The notes: generated from the sequence alone by a model not told the origin. DNA of 22,002 nt from a virus (IMGVR_UViG_3300042485_003947:1-22002), one strand, 5' to 3'. Shown: positions 4,701 to 17,166, counted from the stretch's first letter. A program made the numbers and translations.

Positions 4701-5336
4701 ATGGCAACTGCGTACGTAGGTCCAAGACCTATTTTAAGGGGTGTGAACTCCAGCGATATGGTTAATCCATATACAACAATGACCGGTAGAGTCAAAGGTA
4801 CTGGAACGTACTCTTACTACCCGCTTTATAACACTAGTCATCTTTTGACTGGTGCACCAGACAATCATCGTGCACCTGGCACTGGTTACTTCCCAGGTGA
4901 CGTATTTATGTCACAAATCTTTACGGGTAGCGTATCTTACATTCACCCACTTTCTGGAACATTCCCTGACGGTACCGCAACTTATGATGGCGCTAGATTC
5001 CGTCCAAGTGAATTTAAAGGGCTTAGCGGATCTGCTGTTTTCGAAACCACATTTGGTCACGCAGAAAGAGAAAACGAATACAAGCTTCGTCAGTATTCTT
5101 TCAAAGGTTTAGCATCAGCTAAAGCTATGGACAACGTTGGGCATGCCGTTAGAACCGATGCACAAGGTGCACCTAATACCTTTGGAGTCTTTAGGCCTGA
5201 AGAAGAACATGGTGTAGCGAGTGCTAGAGTCTTCAATGCTACGTTTGGACAAGCAATTCCAACCGGCTATAATAATGAGTATGGTAAAAACAAAGTTCAA
5301 GAGTGGCGAGGCGTTGCCTCTTCAAAAGCTCTCTGA
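4701..5336 (+). CDS. Repeat-containing, probably abundant virion-associated protein
   Basis: A 211-residue Gly/Ala/Tyr-rich protein that I do not recognise. Residues 1-100 are Gly/Pro/Tyr-rich with no clear domain. Residues 101-211 hold an internal duplication of about 65 residues: RPSEFKGLSGSAVFETTFGHA at 101-121 matches RPEEEHGVASARVFNATFGQA at 165-185, and EYKLRQYSFKGLASAKAM (126-143) matches a segment at 193-211 ending RGVASSKAL. The short core G[LV]xSxxx[FML] thus occurs four times. Its own promoter, a consensus RBS and position at the end of the structural genes fit a highly expressed structural or decoration protein. It has no Cys. The call as virion protein is inference. Confidence 0.72.
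   Translation: MATAYVGPRPILRGVNSSDMVNPYTTMTGRVKGTGTYSYYPLYNTSHLLTGAPDNHRAPGTGYFPGDVFMSQIFTGSVSYIHPLSGTFPDGTATYDGARFRPSEFKGLSGSAVFETTFGHAERENEYKLRQYSFKGLASAKAMDNVGHAVRTDAQGAPNTFGVFRPEEEHGVASARVFNATFGQAIPTGYNNEYGKNKVQEWRGVASSKAL
5001..5333 (+). repeat. Twofold protein-level tandem duplication within the 4701-5336 gene
   Basis: Two copies of a roughly 65-residue unit, each with two GLxSA-type sub-motifs (residues 105-114, 134-143, 170-178, 203-211). The similarity is visible in protein but diverged in DNA, so the duplication is old and kept under selection. Confidence 0.7.
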
Positions 5337-8911: not shown

Positions 8912-9613
8912 ATGTCTGTTGAAAATAAAACCATAGAAGTATTAGACAAAGGTTATGTAAGACTTGTAGATAAGATGGGCAGCGATCTATCCGTAGTAAA
9001 TGCTGCCAGAGCATCTTTTGCCAAAGAGTCACAAGAGCTGTCAAAAAACGATGCAAGACTGATAGATTTTTTGGCTAGAGAAAATCATATGTCTCCATTT
9101 CGTCACGCATTTGTTACGCTAGAATTTAAAGCTCCCCTGATGGTAGCTAGACAACATTGGAAGTATGTAGTTGGATCTGACCATACTATGGATTCCTGGA
9201 ACGAATCTTCAAGAAGATATATAACTATGGATCCTGAGTTCTATATTCCAAAAGTTGAAGAATGGAGACTAGCTCCAGAAGACAAGAAACAAGGCTCACA
9301 CGGCTTAGCAGACCCCTTTGTGGGCTCTCTGCTAACAGACTCCTTGATTAGGTACGCAGAGCAGGGTGAGGCGTTATATAACATGGCCATGGACAATGGA
9401 ATAGCACCAGAACAAGCTAGATTATTCTTACCTGCTTATTCTTTATATGTAGTATATAGGTGGTCATGTTCTCTGCAATCTGTTGTATTATTCTTATCTC
9501 AAAGACTGGCAGAAGAATCACAGTTTGAAATACAAGAGTATGCTAAAGCCATAAAGGAAATAGTAGAACCATTATTTCCAATAAGCTTTAAATCTTTATT
9601 GACAGGGCGTTAA
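8912..9613 (+). CDS. thyX: Flavin-dependent thymidylate synthase (ThyX), variant signature
   Basis: A 233-residue protein with the ThyX fold pattern: GYVRLVDKMGSDLSVVNAARASF at the N-terminus, HMSPFRHAFVTLEFKAPLMVARQ at 59-81, the motif end SWNESSRRY at 95-103, and a C-terminal R198 in LSQRLAEESQFEIQEYA. ThyX makes dTMP from dUMP with FAD, NADPH and methylene-tetrahydrofolate. The canonical signature RHRxxSxNExSxRY is altered: K84-Y85-V86 stands where RHR belongs, and six extra residues separate it from SxNExSxRY. The PEFY..K..WR...KKQGS block after the motif is shared, as I recall, with a ThyX subgroup found in phages and some bacteria. It is probably still a dTMP synthase, but flavin and dUMP contacts may differ. 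It follows the acidic protein gene by 6 nt. Confidence 0.9.
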   Translation: MSVENKTIEVLDKGYVRLVDKMGSDLSVVNAARASFAKESQELSKNDARLIDFLARENHMSPFRHAFVTLEFKAPLMVARQHWKYVVGSDHTMDSWNESSRRYITMDPEFYIPKVEEWRLAPEDKKQGSHGLADPFVGSLLTDSLIRYAEQGEALYNMAMDNGIAPEQARLFLPAYSLYVVYRWSCSLQSVVLFLSQRLAEESQFEIQEYAKAIKEIVEPLFPISFKSLLTGR

Positions 9614-9813: not shown

Positions 9814-10440
9814 ATGCCAGAACTTAATGCTAATGTGCCAATGATTGAATGCTACGTTAGGGGCAATTTCTTAAGAGATCAGTTGGACTCCCATGGAAAA
9901 TATTTCCCCTGCATGATTTTTGGAGTAACAAGTATTCAGGGAAGAAGTCCCTTATTCCACTTCTTAATGGAAGATGGAGGGATTTGGTGGAGAATGCCGA
10001 TCAATGCCTTCTGTGAAAGACCAGGTGTTCCTGAGGTGGATATTCACGAACTTGTTCTTTGGAACTCTTTCAGCCCTCATGTAGCAGTTACTGAATTCCA
10101 AGCAATGAGAAATATGAGAATGAAGTACGTAAGTAGGTCTGGAGAGTTTGTCAGTACAAAGTATCTATTTACCCTTGATTGGCATGCTCCAGACGATAAT
10201 AATATAAATCTTGGATTTAGCACAAATCCCGGTCAACATAAATGTGGTCATGTGATGCTTAGAGATGATGGTAATTACGCTATACAACCAAATAATAGAG
10301 TTAGATTATTTGATCCATCCTTTACAACAAAAGAAGGAAACCTTATTGATAGGTTTGTCAATACTAGAAAATGGGATGTTGAGGATGCGGATAAATGGAA
10401 AACATCTGATGACAATAGATATTACTATGATATTAAATAA
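9814..10440 (+). CDS. Conserved phage protein of unknown function (cyanophage-like)
   Basis: A 208-residue soluble protein, starting MPELNANVPMIECYVRGNF. The opening MPELN..(I/V)P.IECYVR, the HKCGHVMLRDDGNYAIQPNNR block (about 147-167) and the DPSF element match a conserved hypothetical protein I recall from T4-like cyanophages and related marine phages. No enzyme motif is established for that family. The His/Cys pattern around 147-151 could bind metal. It lies 6 nt before the dCMP deaminase gene and 27 nt after the small membrane protein gene. Name and similarity are from memory and need a search. Confidence 0.72.
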   Translation: MPELNANVPMIECYVRGNFLRDQLDSHGKYFPCMIFGVTSIQGRSPLFHFLMEDGGIWWRMPINAFCERPGVPEVDIHELVLWNSFSPHVAVTEFQAMRNMRMKYVSRSGEFVSTKYLFTLDWHAPDDNNINLGFSTNPGQHKCGHVMLRDDGNYAIQPNNRVRLFDPSFTTKEGNLIDRFVNTRKWDVEDADKWKTSDDNRYYYDIK

Positions 10441-10446
10441 TTAAAA

Positions 10447-10914
10447 ATGTTGTATAACACAAAAGACAAAAAGTACATGCAATTGTGTATTGAGACAGCT
10501 AGAATTTTTTCTACGTGTGCAAAGAAACAGTATGCAGCGGTTCTAATAGATGATAATAATCATATTGTTAGCGTAGGATATAACGGTGGACCACGAGGAT
10601 TTGAGCACTGTAAAGACGGTGGCTGTCCAAGACTGCATGAGAATTCACAAGCTGGATCTAACTATGATAACTGCATAGCAATTCACGCAGAACAAAATGC
10701 CTTGCTGCATTGTGACTATAGTTCAAGTCCAAAAAAAATGTTTATCAATGGACCACCATGTTTCACTTGTGCTAAAATGATAGCAAGCAGTACGATAAAA
10801 GAAGTGTACTATTTAGTAAACTCTGAATATAAAGATTGGGATAACGTTTATAATTTCCTCCAAAAGTGTGGAGTATCTTTAACTGGAATAGAAAAATGGC
10901 AGCTGGAAAATTAA
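10447..10914 (+). CDS. dCMP deaminase (deoxycytidylate deaminase)
   Basis: A 155-residue zinc-dependent deaminase that converts dCMP to dUMP, feeding ThyX. The catalytic motif is H80-A-E82 (AIHAEQNALL), and the second zinc half is P-C105-x2-C108 (GPPCFTCAKMI). An extra Cys/His-rich insertion (H54, C55, C60, H64) matches the structural zinc insertion seen in phage-type dCMP deaminases. YNGGPRGFEHC is the substrate loop typical of this family. Length is normal. The 3' end overlaps the next small gene by 19 nt. Together with nrdJ and thyX it forms a dTTP-supply route. Confidence 0.93.
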   Translation: MLYNTKDKKYMQLCIETARIFSTCAKKQYAAVLIDDNNHIVSVGYNGGPRGFEHCKDGGCPRLHENSQAGSNYDNCIAIHAEQNALLHCDYSSSPKKMFINGPPCFTCAKMIASSTIKEVYYLVNSEYKDWDNVYNFLQKCGVSLTGIEKWQLEN

Positions 10915-11364: not shown

Positions 11365-11629
11365 ATACACAAAAGTTATTATAGTTTCCTTTTTTTTTGG
11401 AGCACTATTAGCTAATGTTTCTTTCAAAAAAGTGTCTTCAAAGAAAGATAAAGTAAACTGGATGCAATATATAAATAGGCTTCAAGAGTTCTGCTTGTAC
11501 GATCTAGATGGAGCTAAACAAGAGTTTATCTCTTTAATAAACTCAGGCTTAAACTACGAAGAAGCATTTAACTTAACACTTATTTCTAAGGCGCATAGAG
11601 AGATGGTGCTAGGAGAAACCCATGATTGA
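11351..11629 (+). CDS. Small membrane-anchored unknown protein
   Basis: Starting at ATG 11351 gives 92 residues. Longer in-frame starts exist upstream, but they would bury the gene further in the preceding one. Residues 8-24 (KVIIVSFFFGALLANVS) are a single membrane helix, or an uncleaved signal anchor, followed by a basic stretch (FKKVSSKKDK) and a soluble helical domain. FFF is encoded within a run of nine T (11390-11398), a possible slippage or sequencing-error site. The frame continues cleanly on both sides, so no shift is indicated. It ends overlapping the glycosyltransferase start by 8 nt. Confidence 0.6.
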   Translation: MKNGKYTKVIIVSFFFGALLANVSFKKVSSKKDKVNWMQYINRLQEFCLYDLDGAKQEFISLINSGLNYEEAFNLTLISKAHREMVLGETHD

Positions 11630-12437
11630 TTTATGTGTTGTAAATTATAATACAAGAAGACTGTTGCAGAGATTTTTGGATGCTCTACACTCAGACGTAT
11701 ACAATCCAAATGGCGCGCTTGCAAAAAACTGGAATCTATTTATTATGGACAATGACTCTACGGATGATTTTGTTCCATGGTTAAGAGAAAACGAAGAACG
11801 ATATTTAATAGATAGAACATTTTTAAGAAAAAATATAGGATACTCTTCTGCTATTAACTATATGGCTTCTAAAAGTAGCGCAGAGATAGTTGGTGTTCTT
11901 AATGGTGACGTTTGGATGACCAGTGAAGATTGCCTGAACATAGAAAAAGCATTTGCCAACAATCCAAACCTACATATACTCGGCCCTAAACAAAGAGATG
12001 AGCATGGATATATAACTCATGCTGGCATCATAGGGACTAATGTGCAACCTAAACATAGAGGTTGGCGAGAGCATGACCCACAAGACTTGCTCTATAAGGA
12101 TCAGATTAATTGCGTAACTGTATCAGGATCTGCATACTTCGTGAGAAGAGATGTCTGGGATGATATGACTAATAATAAACAATATCGAGAATTATATCCT
12201 GATGCTATAGGAGCATTCTTGCCAACGCCACACTATTACGAAGAAACTTGGTGCTCTTACTTTGCAAGACACCTAGGCTACAATGTAGTGTATGATGGAT
12301 CGATATCTATCGGTCATAGCTGGCATGCATCAAGCCCAAAGCCAGGAGAAGGTATTAGCAATGCTGATAAGTACTTCCCCATAAGTAGAGAAATTTTTAG
12401 AAAAGCATGTGATCACATAGGTATAGAAAGAGACTAA
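11622..12437 (+). CDS. GT2-family (GT-A fold) glycosyltransferase
   Basis: A 271-residue cytosolic glycosyltransferase that transfers a sugar from a nucleotide donor; donor and acceptor are unknown. The N-terminal Rossmann-like strand DLCVVNYNTRRLLQRFL is followed by the nucleotide-binding DND at 43-45 (IMDNDSTDD), LRKNIGYSSAIN, and the metal-site equivalent NGDVWM at 94-99. The acceptor side shows Y-EE-TW at 206-210 and a His at 232 (SIGHSW). These match rhamnosyl/GT2-type enzymes. It is the first of a run of three glycosyltransferases and is coupled by an 8-nt overlap upstream and a 1-nt gap downstream. Confidence 0.9.
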   Translation: MIDLCVVNYNTRRLLQRFLDALHSDVYNPNGALAKNWNLFIMDNDSTDDFVPWLRENEERYLIDRTFLRKNIGYSSAINYMASKSSAEIVGVLNGDVWMTSEDCLNIEKAFANNPNLHILGPKQRDEHGYITHAGIIGTNVQPKHRGWREHDPQDLLYKDQINCVTVSGSAYFVRRDVWDDMTNNKQYRELYPDAIGAFLPTPHYYEETWCSYFARHLGYNVVYDGSISIGHSWHASSPKPGEGISNADKYFPISREIFRKACDHIGIERD

Positions 12438-12438
12438 A

Positions 12439-13335
12439 ATGTGGAGAAATGAAAAAATCTTCATAGCAGTTCCAGCTTTTAACGAAAAGTTTACGCACAT
12501 AACCGTAGAAGATGCTTTTGAAAAAGCTGACAAACCTGAAAATATTTATTTTGGTATTTTTAATCAAAAAACAAACAACCTTGAATTTGAAGATTTTTCT
12601 GGTTACAAAAATGTTAGATGCGTTAATGTAACATACAAAAATCCACTAGGTCTTGGGCTGGCTAGGGTAGCTGCAGCCAGTCTTTTAGAAGATGAAGAAT
12701 ATTTTTTGCAGCTAGACGCGCACACAATTTTTGCAAAAGGCTGGGACACGCGATTGCTAGGCGACCTAAAGGAGTTATTGCAGTATTGCGATAAACCTTT
12801 GATATCGCAATCGTTAGCTTGGCATCGTGAAGTAGATTATTTCAATAATGATCAAGCTTACATAAAAAACTTTAGAGGGGATAAAGCATATCCGCTTCAT
12901 AAAGAAGGGGATATTAAGACTCATCCAGACCATTCTAGGGAGTCGGAAGAAAAGATTCTTGGAAAATTTCTCGAGCACTACCTTTGCTATGGTGGTTTCT
13001 TATTTGGCGAATCAAAATTTTTATATGATATTTCTTATGATCCATTCATATTAATGGATCCAGAGCAAGAAATAACGGCTCTTAGAGCATCCACTAGAGG
13101 TTATAGATTTTTTAGTTCAGACATAACACCTATATCTACATTGGGTAAAGGCGAAGATGGCGGCTTCACAGAAGAAAAATATAAAGATGATATTAGATAT
13201 GAATTTTTAAAGTATAATTTTGATCAGATCAGAAAAAGCTGGCATGGCAAAAGATTTTATCAAGGTCTAAATTTTGGTTTTTACGGCGCTGAAACGAAAG
13301 AACTATATGATGAATATTTTAAAAAAATACTATAA
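12439..13335 (+). CDS. Skp1-type GlcNAc-transferase family (GT60/PF11397-like) protein, copy 1
   Basis: A 298-residue GT-A-type glycosyltransferase. The pattern FIAVPAFNEKFTHITVEDAF, then NVTYKNPLGLGLAR, and FLQLDAHTIFAKGWD with the D93-A-H95 metal motif matches the family of the Dictyostelium Skp1 GlcNAc-transferase (PF11397, with LQIDSH in relatives). Further family hallmarks are the LEHYLCYGG segment (about 179-187) and the RASTRGYRFFSSD segment (about 216-228). The family adds GlcNAc to hydroxyproline in eukaryotes; bacterial and phage members have unknown acceptors. It begins 1 nt after the preceding gene. It is clearly paralogous to the next gene. Sugar specificity is not shown. Confidence 0.88.
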   Translation: MWRNEKIFIAVPAFNEKFTHITVEDAFEKADKPENIYFGIFNQKTNNLEFEDFSGYKNVRCVNVTYKNPLGLGLARVAAASLLEDEEYFLQLDAHTIFAKGWDTRLLGDLKELLQYCDKPLISQSLAWHREVDYFNNDQAYIKNFRGDKAYPLHKEGDIKTHPDHSRESEEKILGKFLEHYLCYGGFLFGESKFLYDISYDPFILMDPEQEITALRASTRGYRFFSSDITPISTLGKGEDGGFTEEKYKDDIRYEFLKYNFDQIRKSWHGKRFYQGLNFGFYGAETKELYDEYFKKIL

Positions 13336-13366
13336 TATTTTTACATAACAATAGAAAGAAGATAAA

Positions 13367-14326
13367 ATGGATAAAAATAATATAGACACTATTTTTGTAG
13401 CAATTCCTGCATTAAATGAATATTTTACTGATATAACTATCCAAGATGCTTATAGAAAAGCTAAGTATCCTTCTAATGTTTTTTTTGGAATATTTAATCA
13501 AAAAACTAATGAATCTAAATTTGAAGACTTCTCTGAATATCCAAACGTTAGATGCGCTAATGTATCATATGAGGAGCCATTGGGGGTAGGTCTTGCTAGA
13601 TTAGCTTGTGCTACCCTACATAATGATGAGAAATATTTTCTACAAATTGATGCACACACAATTTTTGTAAAAGATTGGGACTCTATTCTAGTTGAAAATA
13701 TAAAAGAATTAAAGAAATATTGTGATAAACCACTGATTTCACAATCTATATCATGGCATGGTGAAGAAGTATATTTTGATCCGGAGAAAAAGTATATTAA
13801 TAATTTTATGGGAGAAAAAGCTTACCCTCTTTCTGCTAGAGAAGATGGTTTAAGTACTCACGTAGATAAATTTAGGGAACATGAAGAAAAAATATTAGGA
13901 AAGTATTTAGAGCACTACCTTTGTTATGCTGGCGGTGGACTTTTTGGAGATTCAAAATTTTTATATGAAATATCCTATAATCCATTTATCCTTTTTTGTC
14001 CAGAACAAGAAGTAACTGCATTAAGAGCTTCGACAAGAGGATATAGATTTTTTAGTTCAGATAAAACTGTTATATCAACTTTGATGAAACATCCAGAAAA
14101 TGGTTTTACTAAAGAAAAATATTCAGATGATAGACTTTTTGCTTTTAATGGAGTTTTTGAAGGTAAAAAAATATACGGAAATTTTGGCTATGATTATCTT
14201 TATGGTAAAAAATTTGGTTTTTGGGGAGCAGAAAATAAAGAAGAATATGATGAATATGTAAAAATATCAAATAATTATTTTGAAGAAAATGATAAAAAAT
14301 ATCAAAATTTAAAAAAGGAAAATTAA
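13367..14326 (+). CDS. Skp1-type GlcNAc-transferase family (GT60/PF11397-like) protein, copy 2
   Basis: A 319-residue paralogue of the preceding gene. It shares IFNQKTN, LEHYLCY, the RASTRGYRFFSSD block and DAH (D95-A-H97) at equivalent positions. Differences: an extra Gly in CYAGGGLFG, and a rewritten C-terminus (about residues 265-319) ending in a Lys/Asn/Glu-rich tail. The last 106 nt contain only 19 G/C, so the copy looks more AT-rich than its neighbour. An upstream gap of 31 nt with AGAAGAT before ATG carries its own RBS. Both copies keep the metal motif, so both are probably active. Divergence suggests different acceptors or donors. Confidence 0.88.
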   Translation: MDKNNIDTIFVAIPALNEYFTDITIQDAYRKAKYPSNVFFGIFNQKTNESKFEDFSEYPNVRCANVSYEEPLGVGLARLACATLHNDEKYFLQIDAHTIFVKDWDSILVENIKELKKYCDKPLISQSISWHGEEVYFDPEKKYINNFMGEKAYPLSAREDGLSTHVDKFREHEEKILGKYLEHYLCYAGGGLFGDSKFLYEISYNPFILFCPEQEVTALRASTRGYRFFSSDKTVISTLMKHPENGFTKEKYSDDRLFAFNGVFEGKKIYGNFGYDYLYGKKFGFWGAENKEEYDEYVKISNNYFEENDKKYQNLKKEN

Positions 14327-14327
14327 A

Positions 14328-14729
14328 ATGACAGATAAATTCAATGTATACTTATACAACGCAGAAGTTAAAAAAATAGTTGATGGAGATACATTTGATA
14401 TCCTTATTGACCTAGGATTTGATACTTTTAGAAAAGGTAGAGTAAGATTATATGGAATAAATACTCCAGAGAGTCGCACTTCAAATCTTGAAGAAAAGAA
14501 AATGGGATTGGCTGCTAAAGAGTTTACCGATCAATGGATCACTGCTGCAGGTAGAAAAATTAAAATAGAAACAATTCTTGATAAAAATGAGAAGTACGGA
14601 AGAATACTTGCTAGAGTGTGGAACGAAGCAGGAGCTTGTCTGAACACCGATATAGTTGCTGCAGGGTTAGCCAGAGAATATTTTGGTGTAGGCGATAAGA
14701 CATTCCAGGAATTCAAGAAAGAAAAGTAA
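14328..14729 (+). CDS. Staphylococcal-nuclease-like (thermonuclease-type) endonuclease
   Basis: A 133-residue SNase-domain protein that would cleave DNA or RNA with a calcium-type mechanism. It has VDGDTFD with D19/D21, R40 in GRVRLYG (equivalent to R35 of the staphylococcal enzyme), T46-P-E48 (equivalent to T41 and E43), and R92 in KYGRILARVW (equivalent to R87). The metal-ligand Asp at D40 of the model is Asn here (N45), a change I have seen in phage homologues. It has no signal peptide, so it acts inside the cell. AAAGGA lies over the upstream stop as RBS. Its TAA overlaps the next ATG by 1 nt. A role in host-DNA breakdown or repair is inference. Confidence 0.88.
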   Translation: MTDKFNVYLYNAEVKKIVDGDTFDILIDLGFDTFRKGRVRLYGINTPESRTSNLEEKKMGLAAKEFTDQWITAAGRKIKIETILDKNEKYGRILARVWNEAGACLNTDIVAAGLAREYFGVGDKTFQEFKKEK

Positions 14730-15133
14730 TGCAAACATTTTTACCATATCCTGATTTTGTGCAATCAGTAAAAGTTTTAGACTACCGTCGGTTGGGCAAA
14801 CAAAGAGTAGAAACATTCCAAGTCCTTAACATATTGATGGAAAGAACTCCCACTAAGGGTTGGCGCAATCATCCAGTTACACGCATGTGGACTGGATATG
14901 AAGAAGCTTTAAAGTTGTATCAAAACTATACTATCCTTGAATGGATAGATAGAGGATATAAAAATAATATGAAGTTTGAAGATGTAAATCATTCTTCTAT
15001 TATTTATCCAGGTTGGTTTGGTCAAGACTTGTTTCATAGATCTCATAGATCTAATCTTCTTAGAAAAGATTACGAATATTATTCCCAGTACTTTGACGAA
15101 GCACCAGATTTAGAGTATCATTGGCCAGTATGA
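14729..15133 (+). CDS. MSMEG_6728 family / pyrimidine-dimer DNA glycosylase-like protein
   Basis: A 134-residue protein that opens MQTFLPYPDF, then S-V-K-VLDYRRLGKQRVE, GW-NHPVTRMW, and later FHRSHRSNLLRKD-YY and YHWP. This is the conserved layout of the MSMEG_6728 family, which profile libraries group with pyrimidine-dimer DNA glycosylases (Pyr_excise, the T4 DenV class). DenV cuts at UV-induced pyrimidine dimers; whether this family does so is not established. The invariant basic and His residues (R20, R21, H49, H103) fit nucleic-acid binding. The start codon overlaps the SNase stop and the end overlaps the next ATG by 4 nt, so the three genes are translationally coupled. It is probably a DNA repair or base-modification-related factor. 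Confidence 0.85.
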   Translation: MQTFLPYPDFVQSVKVLDYRRLGKQRVETFQVLNILMERTPTKGWRNHPVTRMWTGYEEALKLYQNYTILEWIDRGYKNNMKFEDVNHSSIIYPGWFGQDLFHRSHRSNLLRKDYEYYSQYFDEAPDLEYHWPV

Positions 15134-15534
15134 GCATTACAGTTTATTTAGCTGGCGCTATGGATTACGTTGGCGACTACGCAAAAGGTTGGAGACAAGA
15201 GGCTACATTCATGTTATCCCTACGTGGATACAAGGTTCTTGATCCAACATCTATACCGGAAGATTGCACGATGTCTCCGGATGAAATTGTACAAAAAAAT
15301 CTATTTATGCAGAAGAAATCAGATCTTCTTCTGGTAGAATACATGTTAGAGAATAGAGCTTACATAGGTACTGATTACGAAATGGCTTGGGCTAAAATGA
15401 ATAATCAACCAACAGTGGTCATCTGCTCTAATCAGAATAAAGATCGTCCATATATGAAATATATGGCCACAAGACTTGCAGATACACTGCAAGATGCTAT
15501 AGAATATATAGCAATCCATTATCCAACAAAATAA
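15130..15534 (+). CDS. Nucleoside 2-deoxyribosyltransferase-like protein
   Basis: Starting at ATG 15130 gives 134 residues and a classic ATGA overlap with the upstream gene; a TTG at 15121 is an alternative start. SITVYLAGAMDY, then KSDLLLVEYM, then YIGTDYEMAWAK and PTVVI match the fold of nucleoside 2-deoxyribosyltransferases: a Rossmann-like protein whose catalytic Glu is in a GT..E...A motif (E84 here), with D65. The reaction swaps the base on a deoxynucleoside or hydrolyses the N-glycosidic bond. Some phage members act as nucleotide hydrolases or in base modification. Beside thyX, dCMP deaminase and the glycosyltransferases it suggests pyrimidine remodelling; the substrate is unknown. Confidence 0.85.
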   Translation: MSITVYLAGAMDYVGDYAKGWRQEATFMLSLRGYKVLDPTSIPEDCTMSPDEIVQKNLFMQKKSDLLLVEYMLENRAYIGTDYEMAWAKMNNQPTVVICSNQNKDRPYMKYMATRLADTLQDAIEYIAIHYPTK

Positions 15535-15546
15535 AAGGAAAAAATA

Positions 15547-15738
15547 ATGTCAGACAATAAGTTCAAATACTTTGCTGTTACAACAACTAGCTTAGTTAAG
15601 GCTAATAATAAAACAGAAGCACAAAATGTAGCCATGGGTCGCCGTGGATCAGATGGAGAGCTCTTGTTCAAGTCAACAGAAATTGAACGCATTTCGTCAG
15701 TAGAAGCACGTGAGCAATTAGAAGAATTCACGGCCTGA
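15547..15738 (+). CDS. Small unknown protein
   Basis: A 63-residue protein with a strong RBS (AAAGGA at 15534-15539, then an A-rich spacer). It reads as a small alpha/beta domain: a beta strand FKYFAVTTTSLVKA, a helix NKTEAQNVAMGRR, then LLFKSTEIERISSVEAREQLEE. It has Lys/Arg/Glu on the surface and no membrane segment or Cys. I do not recognise the family. It is the last gene before a terminator, which fits a modest-size accessory protein. Confidence 0.65.
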   Translation: MSDNKFKYFAVTTTSLVKANNKTEAQNVAMGRRGSDGELLFKSTEIERISSVEAREQLEEFTA

Positions 15739-15752
15739 TATTAATTATCTTT

Positions 15753-15792
15753 AGTGGGGGGGTTGGGTTTTCCTGACCCCCCACTTTATTTA
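15753..15792 (+). terminator. Rho-independent terminator with G7/C6 arms
   Basis: AGTGGGGGG (15753-15761) pairs with CCCCCCACT (15777-15785), giving a 9-bp stem and a 15-nt loop, followed by TTATTTAT. It lies 15 nt after the small-protein stop. Because the loop holds GGGTTTTCC, an inner stem is also possible. It should end the metabolic transcript. Confidence 0.85.
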
Positions 15793-15805
15793 TAAAGAGG
15801 AAAAA

Positions 15806-16492
15806 ATGTTAATAGCACAAATGGTTGGAAAAAATGAATCAGGAAGATTCTTAGATAAAGTACTTGAAAGACTATCAACTCAAGTAGATAAGATTGTATT
15901 TACTGACGACTGTTCAGAGGATGATACAGTACAAATAGCCTCTAAGTACGCTGAGGTTTTTAGCAACAATGAAACAATGTTTGAAAAGCATGAGGGTCAT
16001 CTAAGACTCAATGCTTGGAAAAACTTAGAGACAGTAGCTAAAGAAGGTGACTGGATAATTGCAATTGATTGCGACGAAATGCTCTTCCATGAAGATGGCA
16101 TAGAAATTAGAAAAGTTTTACAGTCAAGCCCTTATGATGTGGCGAACGTTAGGTTCTATCATATGTGGAACGAAACACAGTATAGGGTTGACAAATTATG
16201 GGCTCCTAATAATAGCTCTAGAATTTTTAGATACAAAAATGGTGGGACATTCTTAGACAAGAAGCTTGCCTGCGGTTCTGAACCAACCTATGTGGTTGAA
16301 TGGTTGAATCAAAGAAACTATTGGGTTCACTCAGGTCTAGTTATGCAACACCTTGGTTATGCTAGAGATGAAGATAAAGTAATTAAACATAAAAGATATA
16401 TGTCCATAGATAAAGGTGAGTTCCACAACATACAACATATTGAGTCTATTGTAGATCCTAATCCCGTACTAGTAAATTGGAATTTAAAATGA
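15806..16492 (+). CDS. GT2-family (GT-A fold) glycosyltransferase
   Basis: A 228-residue GT-A enzyme. The N-terminal strand and VGKNESGRFLDKVL, then VFTDDCSEDDT at 31-41, and IAIDCDEML with the DCD metal motif at 88-90 are diagnostic of GT2 transferases. The C-terminal half (HSGLVMQHLGY at about 192-202, then HKRYMSID) is typical of the capping part. The substrate is unknown. It begins 67 nt after the upstream stop, right behind a terminator, with an AAAGAGG RBS 5-7 nt upstream of the ATG. The next gene overlaps its stop by 4 nt, so it is co-translated with the GT-D-like protein. Confidence 0.9.
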   Translation: MLIAQMVGKNESGRFLDKVLERLSTQVDKIVFTDDCSEDDTVQIASKYAEVFSNNETMFEKHEGHLRLNAWKNLETVAKEGDWIIAIDCDEMLFHEDGIEIRKVLQSSPYDVANVRFYHMWNETQYRVDKLWAPNNSSRIFRYKNGGTFLDKKLACGSEPTYVVEWLNQRNYWVHSGLVMQHLGYARDEDKVIKHKRYMSIDKGEFHNIQHIESIVDPNPVLVNWNLK

Positions 16493-17166
16493 AAACATAT
16501 AACACTAAAGAAACCATAATCAAGGTAACAGAACTTATGGAGAAGAAAAAAAGATTTGCTTTTGTATCATATACAAGATCTTCATTCTTCTCTATACTGG
16601 GGGATATCAAGGGTGATAAAAAACCACCAAAGAATTTCGTTCAGTCAATACTTACTAGTATCACTTCTAATGATCCACAATACATTGCTGGAGTACAGCC
16701 TGACTTTATCCATTCACAGCAAGACAAGCTTAGTAAAGTAGGCTTAAAAGATAAGGTGTTTTATGACTCATGCTTTCTTGAAAATTATATCAACCAAGAC
16801 TATGACATATTCAATACGTTCATGCAGTACTATTTTAAGCATAATAAGGTATTAGTCATTTCTTTTCAGCATAAATCTAATATTGGAAAGTTTTTCTCTA
16901 AAGACTCTGCATTCATACAAGTCCCATATAATGATTTTTATGATAAGATAGATTCAATAATAGCTCAAGTTTCTGAGTTTGATAACGAATATCAAATGTG
17001 CGTACTAGATTGCCCCATGTTTGCTTCTGCTTTAGCTCCCAAGCTTTGGGAAAAAACAAAGATGTCAATTTTAGACCTTGGGAAAACACTAACTGTAGCA
17101 CGAGCATTTGATAGAAATAAAGAGGGTGGACTTGAAGAAAAATTGGGAAGAACACCAAGACGATGA
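16489..17166 (+). CDS. Possible GT-D-fold glycosyltransferase
   Basis: ATG 16489 overlaps the upstream TGA (ATGA), giving 225 residues; a TTG at 16477 is in frame but less likely. The C-terminal half, VLVISFQHKSN, a Phe/Pro-rich loop (IQVPYNDFYDKIDSII), CVLDCPMFASALAPKLW and MSILDLGKTLTVARAF, resembles the order seen in DUF1792/GT-D glycosyltransferases: a strand-loop, then a strand with a Gly/Ala helix, then a final ID(I/L)G element. The expected acidic motif is not clear, so the assignment is tentative. It is coupled to a GT2 enzyme, which fits a glycosylation pair. The 3' end overlaps the following nuclease gene by about 35 nt. Confidence 0.6.
   Translation: MKTYNTKETIIKVTELMEKKKRFAFVSYTRSSFFSILGDIKGDKKPPKNFVQSILTSITSNDPQYIAGVQPDFIHSQQDKLSKVGLKDKVFYDSCFLENYINQDYDIFNTFMQYYFKHNKVLVISFQHKSNIGKFFSKDSAFIQVPYNDFYDKIDSIIAQVSEFDNEYQMCVLDCPMFASALAPKLWEKTKMSILDLGKTLTVARAFDRNKEGGLEEKLGRTPRR

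Follow-up and report, generated by a model that had tools for sequence, protein, structure and literature searches.

The window analysed here is the whole of the 22,002-bp IMG/VR virus record IMGVR_UViG_3300042485_003947, a genome fragment only, and our subject is a group of five glycosyltransferase (GT) genes on its plus strand. Two of them encode family 2 glycosyltransferases, GT2a (11622..12437, 271 aa) and GT2b (15806..16492, 228 aa), two encode PF11397 glycosyltransferases (12439..13335 and 13367..14326), and the last, whose start codon (ATG at 16489) lies in a 4-base overlap with the GT2b stop, encodes a GT-D fold glycosyltransferase-like protein (16489..17166, 225 aa). An earlier note on this stretch had described five glycosyltransferase genes interleaved with nucleotide-modifying genes. 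The open reading frames (ORFs) exist as noted and the arrangement holds for the window contig, but the five-enzyme set is not a conserved unit: judged by sequence comparison with relatives, three genes (GT2a, GT2b, and GT-D) are core and the PF11397 pair is accessory.

Enzyme families and folds

Curated Pfam cut-offs are passed by four of the five glycosyltransferase calls, the exception being the gene at 16489. GT2a and GT2b score 39.7 and 37.5 bits against PF00535 (cut-off 23.3; E-values 6.2e-10 and 3e-9), with a further match of GT2b to PF13704 (2.9e-8). GT2a has the conserved motifs NxDVW and PHY(Y/F)EETW with D96 and E208 invariant, and scans of cellular genomes gave no relative of it; in the family alignment of GT2b, D88-x-D90-E91 is invariant. 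A GT2b profile searched against the PDB found GmaR as the best solved relative (4.8e-9, over the N-terminal 112 residues), then TarS (2.6e-5), as well as weak matches to SunS and GalT1. The PF11397 proteins score 77.2 and 71.4 bits (cut-off 21; 2.2e-21 and 1.2e-19) and are paralogues with 60% identity, as the note had stated.

The product of the 16489 gene, proposed earlier as a possible GT-D, reaches 20.4 bits against the GT-D-like family PF22882 (3.5e-4), under the 27-bit cut-off, and has no PF08759 match at E <1; searching the PDB with phmmer or with profiles yielded nothing meaningful for this protein or for PF11397. Its AlphaFold2 model, built from 21 lineage sequences, has a pLDDT of 91.5, and Foldseek against the PDB returned only three matches with E <0.001, all of them DUF1792 structures (4phr, 4pfx, and 5v4a; TM 0.65-0.72). 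Since the model is confident and the significant matches are to DUF1792 only, the call is right at fold level and the modelled product has a GT-D fold. Strongly conserved in the family are R30, S31, K44-K-P-P47, VPYN145-148, DCP174-176, and D196-x-G198. In a viral library, the GT-D protein matches one close uncharacterised phage protein and then mostly giant-virus proteins, two of its matches being annotated with methyltransferase or GT2 domains. Structure prediction, which the note had recommended for all the enzymes, was thus informative for GT-D and poor for PF11397 (pLDDT 53). Fold matches of this low-confidence model include GalNAc-T2, chondroitin synthase, TarP, and RmlT, and support no more than a GT-A-like N-terminal region.

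A conserved trio with an accessory pair

Gene order is the same in relatives fetched from viral contigs. The closest long relative, G008 (IMGVR_UViG_3300013005_000001, 210,302 bp), shares about 94-98% protein identity with the window over most genes from RNR to HD, and PF11397 is absent from it. Exact terminal overlaps in G001 (119 bp), G008 (123 bp), G009 (127 bp), and G010 (58 bp) lead us to take these four as closed genomes of 202-211 kb. The host of this ~200-kb freshwater lineage is probably an actinobacterium, because the RNR is 78% identical to that of the Actinomycetia phage DSL-LC01 and a WhiB gene is present in G008. At the DNA level, a distant search of cultured phages gave short matches in the SNase and DenV regions only.

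The main set comprised 90 distinct loci spanning ThyX or an 88-aa ORF through DnaB, and GT2a, GT2b, and GT-D are each found in all 90. As many of these loci had been retrieved with glycosyltransferase queries, the count was repeated on loci fetched with DnaB: each of the three genes occurs in 30/30 of these, and GT-D lies upstream of DnaB in all 68 DnaB-fetched loci with room for it. PF11397 occurs in 13 of the 90 spanning loci. The SNase-type nuclease (14328..14729, plus strand; PF00565 1.6e-13, phrog_452 5e-41), the DenV-like pyrimidine-dimer glycosylase family protein (14729..15133, plus; PF03013 8.4e-23), and the nucleoside deoxyribosyltransferase-like protein (15121..15534, plus; PF15891 3.2e-6, with 27.9 bits under the 30-bit cut-off) are frequent, in 82/90, 75/90, and 84/90, yet each is missing in some relatives that keep the whole trio. 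These genes, and the dCMP deaminase (start at 10447) and ThyX (start at 8912) upstream, have the Pfam matches expected from the note, but the three neighbours are ordinary syntenic ones, and with their loss while the trio stays, the idea that the interleaving points to DNA modification is not supported. A reading of the five glycosyltransferases as one cassette was rejected on synteny across relatives.

Estimates of dN/dS are 0.017-0.055 for the trio (0.017-0.047 for GT2a) versus 0.115-0.22 for PF11397, and by these ratios the trio is under strong purifying selection. Between clades GT-D diverges fastest, with 33-35% identity where GT2a has 72%, which could reflect a changing acceptor.

The PF11397 pair occupies the gap between GT2a and the SNase gene (window 12437-14328), here called slot A. 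In most relatives this slot has no gene and measures 5-6 bp; elsewhere it contains PF11397 (one gene or two), a C5-methyltransferase, GT25 plus a 272-aa gene, a 2-oxoglutarate (2OG) oxygenase, or AIPR. The second PF11397 protein keeps 90-94% identity (dS 0.14-0.22) in phages that are more diverged elsewhere, and the first has a dN/dS of 0.22 at a dS of 0.24 against locus L030; dS values of PF11397 against several relatives are just 0.14-0.24. Because SNase (up to 99% identity) and the second PF11397 protein (90-94%) are nearly identical in phages where GT2a has only ~72%, the comparisons indicate that the PF11397 pair was recently exchanged horizontally. Slot A was also recorded as an insertion hotspot in L005, L010, L053, and L096, AIPR being of abortive-infection type, and the 272-aa gene beside GT25 (L017:11194-12009, minus strand) is without a Pfam match.

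Possible acceptors of the trio

The module is a conserved glycosylation set of a large uncultured phage lineage and is related to known kinds. Our best explanation, to which we give an even chance, is that the trio carries out stepwise cytoplasmic glycosylation of a phage protein, most likely a virion or structural one. GT2a and GT2b would transfer sugars from nucleotide-sugar donors using their conserved acidic motifs, GT-D would then attach another sugar in the manner of DUF1792 on Fap1, and the PF11397 enzymes, in the window and a minority of relatives, would add or vary a glycan residue; the donor sugars are possibly host-supplied. Sequential action, a protein acceptor, and a location in the virion are what we infer from several parallels. 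The best solved relative of GT2b is annotated as GmaR, a flagellin O-GlcNAc transferase, although in Listeria GmaR is a host-encoded regulator as well as a flagellin modifier, whereas GT2b is phage-encoded. In the uncultured, unrelated phage GX15bay (MK557849), homologues of GT2a and GT2b (42% and 28% identity) adjoin each other in a multi-GT cluster directly before the terminase and portal genes; that phage differs in its 52-kb size, its larger GT cluster, and the lack of a GT-D match. In Streptococcus, the DUF1792 domain of dGT1 acts together with a GT-A domain and adds Glc to the growing O-glycan on the adhesin Fap1 (PMC5063993). Both systems pair a GT-D fold with a GT2/GT-A enzyme and have soluble transferases, which in the phage would likewise act in sequence; the phage differs in its separate genes with a GT2 first, in having no PF08759 match at E <1, and in that neither an SRRP adhesin nor secretion genes were seen. 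Together, the dGT1 parallel, the GmaR relationship, and the position of the GX15bay cluster make us favour a protein acceptor.

Glycosylation of a phage protein is further supported because the trio is always kept while its neighbours turn over, because the five enzymes have no strongly hydrophobic segment and no flippase or lipid-carrier family is among the matches listed for the scanned G008 proteins, and because additional sugar genes occur in relatives (RmlD, RmlC, GT17, GT2, a nucleotide-sugar epimerase, and TOD1/MUCI70-like genes). A second sugar cluster with RmlD-like, two methyltransferase, GT2, RmlC, and GT17 genes was observed in G001 at g91.7-96.5k (L018, L019). Actinophages with their own glycosyltransferases are also known among mycobacteriophages such as Maravista, whose two phage-encoded GTs were suggested to modify a virion protein (PMC11256854); those are ~60-kb phages, whereas the ~200-kb lineage has a fixed GT2-GT2-GT-D trio beside replication genes, and virion glycosylation is a proposal for it. 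Four points weigh against this explanation. The analysis identified no acceptor. The genes lie within a nucleotide-metabolism and replication block and not among structural genes, a position that would fit expression early in infection and a target in DNA or the host. The near relatives of GT2b include TarS, which acts on teichoic acid. Functions within glycosyltransferase families, finally, are not transferable at such distance.

The relationship to TarS bears on a somewhat unlikely alternative, in which the enzymes modify a host surface polymer (a wall teichoic acid-like or capsular glycan) in the course of infection and so block superinfection or free trapped progeny. Soluble transfer to teichoic acid is possible given that near relative (GT2b profile match 2.6e-5), and TarP and RmlT are among the structures matched by the poor PF11397 model. 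Enzymes that decorate teichoic acid are themselves cytoplasmic, which leaves the alternative some probability despite the lack of membrane segments in all five glycosyltransferases (maximum 19-residue hydropathy 0.52-0.88). The same lack separates them from GtrABC-type O-antigen conversion, with its membrane flippase and membrane-anchored glycosyltransferase, and no GtrA-like, flippase, polyprenyl-phosphate transferase, or lipid-carrier family is among the matches listed for 83 Pfam-scanned G008 proteins. Other freshwater actinophages carry glycosyltransferases for which a host-surface role has been proposed (PMC10202952).

The genomic position bears on two further targets. Sugar transfer to a modified base of the phage genome, known from T4 and from 5mC-TET-GT phages, where glycosyltransferases likewise lie near nucleotide metabolism genes, would fit the adjoining RNR, ThyX, dCMP deaminase, and DnaB genes, the C5-cytosine methyltransferase between GT2a and SNase in some relatives, the carbamoyltransferase genes found next to or close to PF11397 homologues of XacN1 and L040, and the abundance of 2OG oxygenases in genomes of the lineage. 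A sugar is normally attached to DNA through a hydroxylated base, and the note had advised a search for a hydroxymethylase elsewhere in the genome. This search was made on relatives, as the window record is a fragment, and found a ThyA-type (PF00303) enzyme in 0/16 long relatives, including the four closed genomes of 202-211 kb, and a TET/JBP oxygenase over the cut-off in 0/13 (best 17.8 of 34.9 bits); the strongest sub-threshold loci also match PF13640 over its own cut-off, and the weak PF12851 matches, being below cut-off, were dropped. The window has no C5-cytosine methyltransferase, which occurs only in slot A of some relatives, most trio loci being without one there, and no base-modifying family is among the Pfam matches listed for 83 further G008 proteins. 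The folds differ as well, being GT-A-like and GT-D here and GT-B in the T4 alpha- and beta-glucosyltransferases. We therefore regard a DNA target as unlikely. The note named the enzyme families correctly and rightly kept both a DNA sugar and a multi-sugar glycan in view; of these, a protein or glycan target is favoured, and we would no longer frame the locus as a set of five enzymes or as a DNA-sugar system.

A role of the trio early in infection, in takeover or anti-defence, with a small molecule or a non-virion protein of host or phage as its target, is also unlikely. Gene order makes co-transcription with early or middle genes likely, and AIPR and a methyltransferase are examples of the defence-type genes that relatives have in slot A; nothing direct points to such a target, however, and the GX15bay homologues of GT2a and GT2b adjoin the structural block.

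The PF11397 genes and the oxygenases of the lineage

The family PF11397 includes the Skp1-type hydroxyproline GlcNAc-transferases (GT60). The phage proteins resemble them in Pfam scores over the cut-off, a GT-A-like N-terminal region, and a D-A-H motif (D95-A-H97 in the second protein), but identity between phage lineages is 26-33%, and PDB searches by sequence found no solved relative. By family, UDP-GlcNAc would be the candidate donor and hydroxyproline or Thr the candidate acceptor. Scans of cellular genomes returned two weak PF11397 relatives, and we found no literature on PF11397 in phages. Genes of this family were also seen beside or near a carbamoyltransferase in L285 (XacN1, by annotation), L040 (by Pfam), and L041 (by sequence appearance), the XacN1 gene lying near DNA polymerase; such neighbourhoods could represent a different glycan or DNA modification.

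It is improbable that PF13640 oxygenases hydroxylate proline in short collagen-like GPx segments of tail fibres and that PF11397, GT2, and GT-D build a glycan on the hydroxyl; such a pathway would give a phage the O-glycosylation of hydroxyproline otherwise typical of eukaryotes. The genomes have many PF13640 oxygenases, several of which adjoin tail-fibre genes, but in the lineage of the window they lie elsewhere in the genome, away from PF11397. They occur within three genes of PF11397 in four unrelated loci (L038, L039, L040, and L042/L276; permutation p 0.03 with shuffled positions), and close relatives of two of these four lack PF13640 (L278, L279-L282); because it is lost in close relatives, the adjacency of PF11397 and 2OG oxygenases was dropped as main evidence. 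Short collagen-like segments in G001 score below the cut-off, and collagen-like sequence is absent from three fragments scanned.

In G001 (g200-211k, L024, and the start of L014) and G008 (g158-169k), PF13640 2OG-Fe(II) oxygenases, six to eight in number, and a DUF6065 gene form a cluster beside tail-fibre genes that is well conserved between both. A protein of G001 beginning MKIVVIGGGTAGWLAALMIKK (L024:6597-8111) is by appearance a flavin-dependent tryptophan halogenase, and G008 has two glutathione-peroxidase-like proteins (PF00255, best 2.2e-30). In the window, a 208-aa protein (9814-10440) matches phrog_3704 ('ferredoxin', 3.5e-54) and occurs in 3/90 spanning loci, and a small structural-region protein (4701-5336) has repeated F+GL+SAKA-like motifs and a G008 homologue without a PHROG match.

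Should a virion protein be the target of the trio, virion glycosylation would be core and not optional in a widespread freshwater actinophage lineage, and a GT-D enzyme would have become a phage core gene. What phage glycosyltransferases act on is an old question, and a locus that keeps its three enzymes in all distinct relatives studied makes it open to test.

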